A stretch of 64,000 bases of DNA from Dialister pneumosintes. GTDB lineage: Bacteria > Bacillota > Negativicutes > Veillonellales > Dialisteraceae. A program made the position numbers and the translations under genes. This document shows, in pieces, positions 3,193 to 44,303 of the stretch. Position 1 is the first letter of the stretch. Each line of letters starts with the position of its first letter. A model generated the notes under the pieces. It made no database searches. It was not told the DNA's origin and worked only from the letters and a program-made list of their open reading frames with translations. Location: contig NZ_CP017037.1 in assembly GCF_001717505.1 (NCBI RefSeq), forward strand, positions 411,001 through 475,000. The letters are read 5' to 3'.

Positions 3193-3777
3193 ATGAACGA
3201 AAAAGAAGTAGAGTTATTATTGAGAGAAACAAAAGCGATTCTTGAAGGACATTTTTTGCTTACTTCAGGATTACATAGTCCTTTATATGTTGAAAAGTTT
3301 AATGTATTGCAACATCCTGAATATACAGAACAGTTATGTAAAGAATTTGCAGAGTATTTTAAAGATAAAGGTATAGAAACTGTTATTGGACCTGCAACAG
3401 GAGGTATTATTTTATCACAGGTTACTGCAAGATTGATGGGAGTACGCTCTATCTTTACTGAACGAGAAAAAGGAGTAATGACTTTTCGCCGTGGATTTAG
3501 CATAAGGCCGGGAGAAAAAGTCCTTATCGTGGAAGATGTAGTTACAACCGGTGGTTCTGTTAAAGAAGTGGTAGATGTAGTAAATAAAATGGGCGGAGAT
3601 ATTGTCGGAATTGGCCTTTTTGTAGATCGTTCCGGTGGAAAAGCAGACTTTGGTGTTCCAAAAGAAAAAGTACATCCTTTATTACACTTAACGGTTCCTA
3701 CCTATCAAGCAGAAGAATGTCCATTATGTAAACAAGGAATACCGATTACGGAAAGAGGAAGTCATCACTTAAAATAA
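3193..3777 (+). CDS. pyrE: orotate phosphoribosyltransferase
   Basis: PyrE joins orotate to PRPP to give OMP, the step just before PyrF. The PRPP-binding signature VLIVEDVVTTGGS spans residues 110-122, and the orotate and flexible-loop region with FTEREKG lies at about 88-94. The 194-residue length and the C-terminal CPLCKQGIPI segment match the variant common in clostridia and relatives. Start ATG 3193 is preceded by a purine-rich AAGGGGG within the end of pyrF. The gene is followed by an intrinsic terminator, and beyond it by unrelated phage-derived DNA. Confidence 0.97.
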   Translation: MNEKEVELLLRETKAILEGHFLLTSGLHSPLYVEKFNVLQHPEYTEQLCKEFAEYFKDKGIETVIGPATGGIILSQVTARLMGVRSIFTEREKGVMTFRRGFSIRPGEKVLIVEDVVTTGGSVKEVVDVVNKMGGDIVGIGLFVDRSGGKADFGVPKEKVHPLLHLTVPTYQAEECPLCKQGIPITERGSHHLK

Positions 3778-3785
3778 TGGTAAGT

Positions 3786-3814
3786 AAAAAGAACCTTTAA
3801 ACGGGTTCTTTTTT
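3786..3814 (+). terminator. intrinsic terminator after pyrE
   Basis: AAAAAGAACC pairs with GGTTCTTTTTT around a seven- to eight-base loop and is followed by T residues, nine bases after the pyrE stop. Confidence 0.8.
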
Positions 3815-3922
3815 ATTGTTTATTTAAATGACATCATGGTTTAGAAGTGAAATAGAAAAAGGTAATTTACGTTATGTAGATAAGATAAGAGCGGATATGT
3901 TGTTGCAATTAGGACAACAAAA

Positions 3923-3987
3923 AACTACCGCCTTCTTACAGTCCGCCGGGCTCCAATTGCCCTTGGAGTGTAAGAAGAACGGTAGTT
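3923..3987. repeat. 65-base interrupted palindrome inside the phage remnant
   Basis: AACTACCG and TTCTTACA at 3923-3940 pair with TGTAAGAA and CGGTAGTT at 3969-3987, with a small internal mismatch. An inner stem CTCCAA/TTGGAG (3951-3956 and 3963-3968) encloses TTGCCC. A ten-base GC-rich bulge (GTCCGCCGGG) remains unpaired on one side. It lies within open reading frame, has no following T tract and so does not look like an ordinary terminator. Confidence 0.7.
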
Positions 3988-4049
3988 CATCTAAAATAAC
4001 TATACTAGATGAAACTGACCTTGTCAAGTACAAAGAAAATAATTCTTTT

Positions 4050-4530
4050 TATTATCAAAAGGGGAATAAAATCACTCTTAATAAAGATAGTTTAGTCGTT
4101 TATGATGTTATGCAAGAAAAAAGAGCTCTAACCAAAATGGGCTCGAAGTCAGAAAGATTACAAATTACAAGTAATCCTGACCTGATGAGCAAAAGGGCTC
4201 TTTCTGAGATAACTATACAGGAAATGCTCGCTGGAATCAAGGATATGGATAACACTCTTATTATCAAAAGGAAAATAAAATCACTTTTGATAAAAATAGT
4301 ATTGGGCTTTTTGATGTCATTATAGACAAAAAGAGACCCATTAGGGCATCCGGAAGTACAAAAAATGTACAACCAGTATTAGCAATTCCGCAAAGCGGAC
4401 GTTCTATAAGCCCTAATGAATCTCTTAGTACCATTACTATACATGAAATGCTAAAAGATGTCAAGGATACAAAAGGAAATTCTTATTATCAAAAGACCGA
4501 TAACAAAACGGTTAATAAAGGAGCTTATGA
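4050..4530 (+). repeat. degenerate tandem repeats within the phage remnant
   Basis: Three units begin with the codons for Tyr-Tyr-Gln-Lys at 4050, 4259 and 4484. The first two share the nucleotide string TTATTATCAAAAGG then AATAAAATCACT, and their ends share SEITIQEML versus STITIHEML. Spacing is 209 and 225 bases; 209 is not a multiple of three, which explains the reading-frame break at about 4257. The third unit leads into the HExxH motif. Confidence 0.75.
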
Positions 4531-5986
4531 TTATATCAATAATGCTATACATGTGTTTGACGGAGCGGACAAGAGTACTGTTCTTCATGAATCCGCACAC
4601 TTCTATTTAACGACTTTACAAAACCTTGCGACTTCTTCCGTATTGCCTAGTGAAGAAAAAGCAAAGATACAAGCAGATATCAAGACCATTGAAGAATGGG
4701 CAAGCTACTCTAAAGAGGTTATGGAAGAGTACAAAGATACACCGCTTGAAAAAGAGTTTAAATCTTATGAAAAAGCGGTTAAGAAAGGCGAAGAAGGAGC
4801 GAGAGAACGCTTTATACAAGAGAGATTTGCCAGAGGATTTGAAAGATATATTCTTGAAGGTAAAGCACCGACTAAAGAACTTAGAAGTGTATTCAGAAGA
4901 TTTAGTAAGTGGCTAAAAGAAATCTATCAGTCTTTAATGAGTTTAGGAAAGATAGATCCACCAGAAGAAGTAAGAGTTATCTTTGATAAGATGGTAGCTA
5001 CTGATGAAGAAATAGAAAAGTGGCAGTTACAGAAAAAGTTACTTGCCATAGATAAAGTAGGGATTAACTTCAACCAGACCGAAGAAGAAAACATTAAGAG
5101 ATGGGAAGAAGAAATTAAGGATAGTATCCGTGAACGTTCGTTAAGTCTTTTTATGAAACAGTATAAAGAGGGGAAATTAACCGAACTTGACGAACAAATG
5201 GAAACAGCAAGAGACCTTTATATCAAGGGATTAGTAGAAGAGAATGAAGTATATAAGATAGAACAGATACTTGATTCCGATTTATTCCCTACCGCCTTAG
5301 AAAAGAAAAATTTCCTTGCTAACTATGGGTATACGAAAGAAACCTTTGAAAAAGCGTTAATGGAACACGGCGGCACTTCTGATGTGAGAGCGGATGCTTA
5401 CATAGAAGACTTAAAGAAAAAGTATATTGACTCTATGCTTACACCTGAAATGATACGGAATGAAGCGGATAAGAAACTCAATTCACCAGAAGGACTTGAG
5501 AAGATGACCGCTGAATACTCTTCCATGATGAAGAAACGAATCAATCAGTACATAAGACAGGCAACCACTGCCGCTTTATCATTAGAGAGGGTGACGGATA
5601 CTAAAGACCTTACCGCTGATTTAAAAGAAAGATTAGGTATATCTGATACAGAAGCAAGAATCGGACGAGCAGAAGAAAAAACACACAAAGCTGAGGTTAA
5701 ACTACAAGACCTTAGGGGGAAAGTACGTAACCATATAGATTCCTTGAAAGCGGCAAGAAAACTACTTGATGTACCCGTAAGACAGTTAGAAGAAAGTATT
5801 ATTAACTCTATGTCTAAACAAAATATTTCTAAGGCGACTAACTGGAAATACTGGAACAATAGACAAAAGAGCGTAACCACAAGTGCCACAAGAGAAATCC
5901 GTAAAGGTAATTGGGCAAATGCCAGCTACTGGATAAACGAGGGGCGGAAAATATTTAAATCAGGTAGTGCAATAAATTATGGGTTA

Positions 5987-6016
5987 TGGTATAGTATTAG
6001 CATCAGGTGATAATAA
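5987..6016 (+). promoter_or_regulatory. fapR promoter with candidate FapR operator
   Basis: TGGTATAGT at 5987-5995 fits an extended -10 box. Directly downstream, an imperfect 20-base palindrome (TTAGCATCA, GG, TGATAATAA; 5997-6016) covers the likely start site and the AGGTGA ribosome site. FapR is known to repress its own operon by binding a palindrome beginning TTAG at this kind of position, so this is the natural operator candidate; the match to the Bacillus consensus is only partial. Confidence 0.4.
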
Positions 6017-6576
6017 TGACGATGAAACCATTAAATACTAAAGAAGAAAGAAGAAAAAATATCCATGAAGCAGTTCGGCAAAATCCGATGTTAACCGATT
6101 CGGAATTGGCGAATCTCTTTAGTGTGTCACAAGCGACTATTCGCTTAGATAGACAAGCTTTAGGTATTCCGGAAATGCGTAAACGTATTAAAAATGCAAT
6201 TCAAAAAAATATGATTTCTGTGGATAGATATCATGGAGAAATTGAAATTCTTCAGCTGGAGCTTAATAGAAAAGGTTTGGCACTTATAACCATCACTTCT
6301 GATATGGTAGATAATTCCGGATATGTCCCTGCAGAAAAAATGTATGGAGTATCTGTAGAATTAGCTAAAAGACTTATTGGAAATAAGTTAGATCCGACAC
6401 AAGTCGGAAATATTAAATATAAAACAGCAATTTCTGCAGGTAAGAAATTGGTAGTAAAAATGAAAGTGGCACGTGTTAAGGAGACAAAAGAGTATATTTA
6501 CATTGTTTTTTATGATAGAGAACATGAAGTTTTTCGTGCTAAGTTTATAGCAGACATTGCAGTAAAGGGACGGTAG
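6016..6576 (+). CDS. fapR: FapR, malonyl-CoA-responsive repressor of fatty acid and phospholipid genes
   Basis: FapR represses lipid-synthesis genes until malonyl-CoA binds its hot-dog domain. Counting from ATG 6016 the protein has 186 residues: an N-terminal helix-turn-helix (LTDSELANLFSVSQATIRLD, about residues 26-45) of the DeoR-like type, a linker helix, and a C-terminal hot-dog fold domain with the family's DMVDNSGYVPAEKMYGVSVELAKRL-like stretch shortened here to its key Asn and Glu. The upstream GTG 6007 is in frame but would sit almost at the transcription start; AGGTGA five bases before ATG 6016 favours the latter. plsX follows after five bases, the standard fapR-plsX arrangement. The gene begins exactly where the phage remnant stops. 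Confidence 0.93.
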   Translation: MTMKPLNTKEERRKNIHEAVRQNPMLTDSELANLFSVSQATIRLDRQALGIPEMRKRIKNAIQKNMISVDRYHGEIEILQLELNRKGLALITITSDMVDNSGYVPAEKMYGVSVELAKRLIGNKLDPTQVGNIKYKTAISAGKKLVVKMKVARVKETKEYIYIVFYDREHEVFRAKFIADIAVKGR

Positions 6577-44062: not shown

Positions 44063-44125
44063 AAATTCAAAACTTGTAAACAGTATAAAAATCATTTATA
44101 CTGTAGCAGTTAAGAAGAATAATTT

Positions 44126-44303
44126 CTCTTCAGGGCAAGGTGTAACTCCTTACCGGTGGTAAAGCCCACGAGCCATGTGCTGATTTGGTGAAACTCCAAA
44201 GCCGACAGTAATAGAATATATATATTCTTAAGTCTGGATGAAAGATAGAGGAAAGTATTATAATCAATGCCACGTCCTGAGGAATTCAGGAGGTGGCTTT
44301 TTT
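44126..44303 (+). promoter_or_regulatory. FMN riboswitch (RFN element) with expression platform
   Basis: The conserved RFN pieces appear in order: TCTTCAGGGCAAGGTG, AAAGCCCACGAGCC, GATTTGGTGAAACTCC, AAGCCGACAGT and AGTCTGGATGAAAGA (44126-44251). Downstream a hairpin GCCACGTCCTGA/TCAGGAGGTGGC (44269-44297) with six T residues acts as terminator; the ribD ribosome site AGGAGG lies within its right arm. FMN binding should therefore shut off the rib operon. Confidence 0.95.

Follow-up and report, generated by a model that had tools for sequence, protein, structure and literature searches.

A fragment of a giant phage polyvalent protein gene between pyrE and fapR of Dialister pneumosintes, most likely a neutral capture

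The region studied is a window of 64,000 nucleotides from the genome of Dialister pneumosintes (GCF_001717505.1, contig NZ_CP017037.1, positions 411,001 to 475,000), and positions given below are those of the window unless otherwise indicated. Two open reading frames (ORFs) lie between pyrE and fapR, at 3828-4325 (165 aa) and 4448-6010 (520 aa), the second of which carries the motifs DGADKSTVLHESAHFYL and ERFARGFERYI. In these coordinates and motifs, as well as in the placement of the fragment, with the pyrE terminator to its left and the fapR promoter to its right (Table 1), the initial annotation was accurate. The base composition of the fragment is the same as that of its surroundings. Elsewhere in the window, an FMN riboswitch (RF00050, 92.9 bits) was detected at 44122-44254, upstream of an ORF at 44293.

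Table 1. Features of the pyrE-fapR region, with window positions and the evidence for each.
Feature	Position	Strand	Evidence
pyrE, orotate phosphoribosyltransferase, left host flank	3193-3777	+	TIGR01367, 2.3e-64; congener gene 88.7% identical
Intrinsic terminator after pyrE	3786-3813	+	Terminator-like hairpin with T-run also after the congener pyrE
Left 9-bp direct repeat TATTTAAAT, plausible insertion border	3821-3829	.	Repeat search
Upstream part of the slice, linker with repeat units, in ORF 3828-4325	3830-4250	+	Weak matches to polyvalent ORFs of G057 and G019; repeats D1-D3
Frameshift between repeat copies, from the 3828 frame to the 4253 frame	4236-4260	+	Three-frame and repeat translations
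Main part of the slice: zincin-like metallopeptidase domain (predicted), then long helical region	4253-5960	+	phrog_9880, G008 match, HExxH and E, structure model
Right 9-bp direct repeat TATTTAAAT, plausible insertion border	5952-5960	.	Repeat search
fapR promoter (GTGCAA, 17 bp, TATAGT, extended -10) and FapR-operator-like palindrome TTAGCATCAGGTGATAA	5967-6013	+	11-genome alignment; operator pattern match
fapR, right host flank	6016-6576	+	NF003359, 2.4e-36, below the curated cut-off of the model; orthologues in 11 of 12 family genomes

Three-frame translation indicated that a single frameshift near position 4250 splits one coding sequence into both ORFs, whose junction is spanned by copies of a linker repeat (SYYQK..NKIT..., direct repeats D1-D3). 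The frame of the second ORF is stop-free from 4253, which amounts to 585 codons, whereas the longest stop-free run in shuffled sequences of the same composition averaged 53 codons and never exceeded 102. This length, together with homologues at E values down to 3.5e-115, indicates that the open frame at 4253-6010 is not due to chance. The stretch of about 520 open codons originally described is therefore present within an even longer frame, but its tail does not belong to the phage sequence: since the conserved fapR promoter starts right past the slice, the 520-aa ORF ends in ~17 codons of host DNA (5961-6010). No Shine-Dalgarno sequence was found at ATG 3828 (+1.0 kcal/mol) or ATG 4448 (+0.8 kcal/mol); the values for pyrF, pyrE, fapR, plsX, fabD, and fabG range from -8 to -10 kcal/mol. 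Among the start codons in the remnant frames, a strong Shine-Dalgarno-like match (-8.1 kcal/mol) was found only for an internal ATG at 5504, which would yield a short helical peptide ending at 6010, and this match is probably a chance occurrence. A promoter scan of the fragment gave no forward match better than 9/12. On the minus strand, two promoter-like sites (TTGACA-17-TATAGT, 11/12) at 4464-4436 and 4027-3999 are directed at pyrE; both lie inside the linker repeat and are probably incidental to the repeated coding sequence.

Residues 9-199 of the 520-aa ORF aligned to positions 934-1101 of the phrog_9880 profile (1e-34), which is also matched by all 32 members of the homologue alignment (A2), and this profile match places the fragment in the Bbp10/phrog_9880 polyvalent family. 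Searches with tblastn retrieved 43 phage records, including Bbp10 of phage BPP-1 (30%, 2e-18). Among 60 relatives, ten genomes besides this one have a match, nearly all of these in single open frames of about 1060-4600 codons. The best match was a 3282-aa protein of genome G008 (3.5e-115), whose residues 1913-2384 are colinear with the ORF at 43% identity over about 472 residues. Because only this part of the G008 protein is covered by the alignment, the window holds an internal slice of such a gene. Homology is strong across 4517-5926 and weak across about 3890-4516, and no homologue was found for the first ~60 bp of the slice (about 3830-3890) or, using phmmer, for the first 60 residues of ORF 3828-4325. 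Relatives are encoded on at least 521 IMG/VR stretches and 23 genome contigs, the best ones in the genome set belonging to Veillonellaceae, Selenomonas, and Veillonella. Thus, the comparison with phage and prophage proteins proposed in the initial annotation returned intact homologues: one lies in a complete prophage from a related genus, and hundreds of viral contigs encode others. Window-peptide scans of viral and genome contigs found no close relative or donor phage, the closest sequences being only 43-44% identical. Pfam and NCBIfam profiles gave nothing above cut-off on the fragment, and neither a nucleotide search of phage records nor a sequence search against solved structures produced a match. 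The phrog_9880, Bbp10, and G008 matches bear out the proposed remnant of a phage polyvalent protein and establish its phage origin. Judged by its sequence, the stretch 3830-5960 comes from the interior of a phage polyvalent protein gene of the Bbp10 type. Full-length giant proteins of this type have about 2000-4300 aa; since about 2.1 kb are left here, in two frames, the fragment is a remnant of a phrog_9880 member and not a working one.

Residues H47, E48, H51, E125, and E132 of the 520-aa ORF are invariant in 32 homologues, the HESAH codons being located at 4586-4600. In the structure model (mean pLDDT 80), HExxH lies in helix 42-61 and the glutamates in helix 118-137, so that both the 32 sequences and the model display the zincin-like arrangement of an HExxH helix followed by a conserved glutamate in a later helix. 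This segment of the parent protein is accordingly predicted, from sequence and model, to be a zincin metallopeptidase. A fold search of the PDB with the whole 520-aa model, which is dominated by long helices, found no match at E <= 0.001 and returned long-helix matches only, and the predicted viral structures matched were labelled "crystallin beta/gamma motif" and "large polyvalent protein associated domain" (4e-14 and weaker). Among 87 non-redundant relatives, 23 sites are the same in at least 90% of the sequences; the fragment retains 22 of them, with a single change of R to K, a mid-range value among intact phage copies. Apart from the frameshift, sequence decay is therefore slight. Residues 700-1000 of Bbp10 constitute a zincin seed in an earlier study, in which Bbp10 is included in the CLCA_X zincin set (PMC3650047). 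The zincin-like MPTase is the commonest domain of polyvalent proteins, and the roles proposed for it are self-processing of the polyvalent protein or action as an effector in the host following injection (Iyer et al., 2017, PMC5512222).

The pyrE-fapR gap was also compared in related genomes, as had been suggested, and the only congener compared lacks the insert: about 135 bp, with the terminator and the fapR promoter, separate both genes, and the order chrA-pyrF-pyrE-fapR-plsX-fabD-acpP is otherwise kept. A polyvalent gene was found at this position in no other genome of the family examined, each species being represented by one genome. In nine genomes, which represent three other genera of the family, the gap is occupied by an unrelated FabK-like enoyl reductase/nitronate monooxygenase gene in convergent orientation (loci L033, L034, and L045-L051), the best matches of which lie elsewhere in this genome (G000:C1:1267888) and in the congener (G001:C33). 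Since this gene occupies the gap in other genera and its best match in this genus lies elsewhere, the gap is a site of gene turnover. By parsimony over two genomes, its content has probably changed twice, first by loss of the FabK-like gene from the genus (or, alternatively, its acquisition by the other genera) and then by gain of the slice in this lineage.

On the right side, alignment of the upstream regions of 11 genomes revealed that the fapR promoter and its palindromic operator are conserved, and the window copy is intact from about 5967, including the FapR-operator-like palindrome at 5997-6013. Copies of TATTTAAAT stand about where the slice meets host DNA on both sides, and the slice borders are placed within tens of bases. 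About 1% of random pairs of zones this large share a 9-bp word, a figure to be read bearing in mind that the zones were picked after inspection. The repeat may represent a target duplication or microhomology. Its interpretation as an attachment site was rejected, since phage ends would have to lie beside the repeats and the right-hand sequence is the middle of one gene.

The rest of the genome was searched for further phage sequences. No second piece of the polyvalent gene was found in it using residues 969-3282 of the G008 protein as query, nor any match to the portal and terminase of the G008 phage, a search run here without a positive control and in which a more distant phage type could be missed. 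Four tyrosine recombinases are encoded in the genome, none of them in the window (the nearest integrase is at genome position 513255), and the window contains no tRNA. As the window lacks an integrase and a tRNA, and the genome searches yielded no portal or terminase match, the fragment does not form part of an intact prophage, in line with the first reading of this region.

Prophages usually end by deletion decay, and a related prophage is intact and integrated within the family, in G008. A whole BPP-1-like prophage could thus have integrated between pyrE and fapR and then been deleted from both sides down to an internal piece of its largest gene. We consider this history unlikely, because the slice reaches near both host borders, so that one deletion would have had to end at the terminator and another at the promoter, with no damage to either element; moreover, neither an integrase or tRNA in the window nor a further piece in the genome was found, and the slice itself is closely flanked by TATTTAAAT. 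A host protein family conserved at the pyrE-fapR position, for which no supporting point was found, has a negligible probability: the congener gap is of about 135 bp, and the gene found there in nine genomes of three other genera is the unrelated FabK-like one. For the genomes compared, the empty site in the congener refutes it. No other genome of the family examined has the gene at this position and the similarity to phage proteins is clear; hence, neither of the outcomes held in the initial annotation to contradict capture was obtained.

Retention of the fragment as a small gene of the host, encoding a truncated zincin metallopeptidase or a helical scaffold protein, would agree with the intact HExxH and conserved glutamates, the near-complete set of conserved sites, the 585 open codons, and the confident model over the core. 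Against these stand the upstream frameshift, plausible starts that lack a Shine-Dalgarno sequence, forward promoter matches of the low quality indicated above, the occurrence of the fragment at this position in no other family genome, and a 3' end that runs into the fapR operator, all of which make retention very improbable. Slightly more doubtful still is the specific proposal that the host expresses and maintains the truncated zincin domain, e.g., as a small peptidase or for interference with incoming BPP-1-like phages that carry a similar polyvalent protein. An expressed fragment would amount to the domestication of part of a giant phage protein that is poorly understood, but this analysis offers no support for expression. 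Of the two options initially offered to explain the open frame, recent acquisition is thus favoured over kept use: the conserved sites are intact, but the frame is broken and start signals are absent.

The explanation that we regard as likely is that, in one lineage, a ~2.1-kb slice of a polyvalent protein gene from a BPP-1-like tailed phage entered the space separating the pyrE terminator from the fapR promoter, and that the slice most likely yields no functional protein. Its source is an internal portion of a giant Bbp10-type gene, and the route was probably illegitimate recombination of phage DNA at the short TATTTAAAT site. Without a start of its own, a ribosome-binding site, or the remainder of the gene, and frameshifted besides, the slice would not be expected to encode a working product. 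Because the site lies between a terminator and a promoter, the insertion would have been tolerated with neither flanking operon disturbed. The fragment was most likely captured recently and is most likely non-functional; as the closest relative is only 43-44% identical, recency rests on the low degree of decay. Overall, a neutral capture is the most likely status of the fragment, which constitutes a clear case of a phage gene slice caught between terminator and promoter with both operons unharmed. It documents that this lineage, which has a small genome, once met a BPP-1-like phage of which the searches found no other trace in the genome, and it is a well-resolved yet ordinary molecular fossil.

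Among known systems, Bbp10 of Bordetella phage BPP-1, a phrog_9880 protein annotated as "crystallin beta/gamma motif-containing protein", belongs to the same family by sequence over the metallopeptidase region, its zincin seed being the matching part. However, Bbp10 has about 2050 aa and is complete in its phage, whereas the slice comprises only about 700 middle codons and is frameshifted. The closest full-length relative found, the 3282-aa G008 protein (CASEBK010000031.1, uncultured Veillonellaceae), is intact, bears upstream LPD3 and PBECR5 domains that the slice lacks, and sits in a DGR-bearing prophage. This prophage encodes a terminase, a portal protein (phrog_332), a major head protein, tubular tail and internal virion proteins, a tail fibre, a DGR reverse transcriptase, and an endolysin, in an order syntenic with BPP-1 (bbp13, bbp10, mtd, brt). 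In this Veillonellaceae host, the DGR reverse transcriptase and an Mtd-like tail protein were observed in BPP-1 order (L026, 3860-8059). The polyvalent proteins with a zincin-like MPTase described in PMC5512222 share with the slice the HExxH motif and the downstream helical glutamate, set in the parent within a giant multidomain phage protein, but the window retains a single domain and only part of the helical region.
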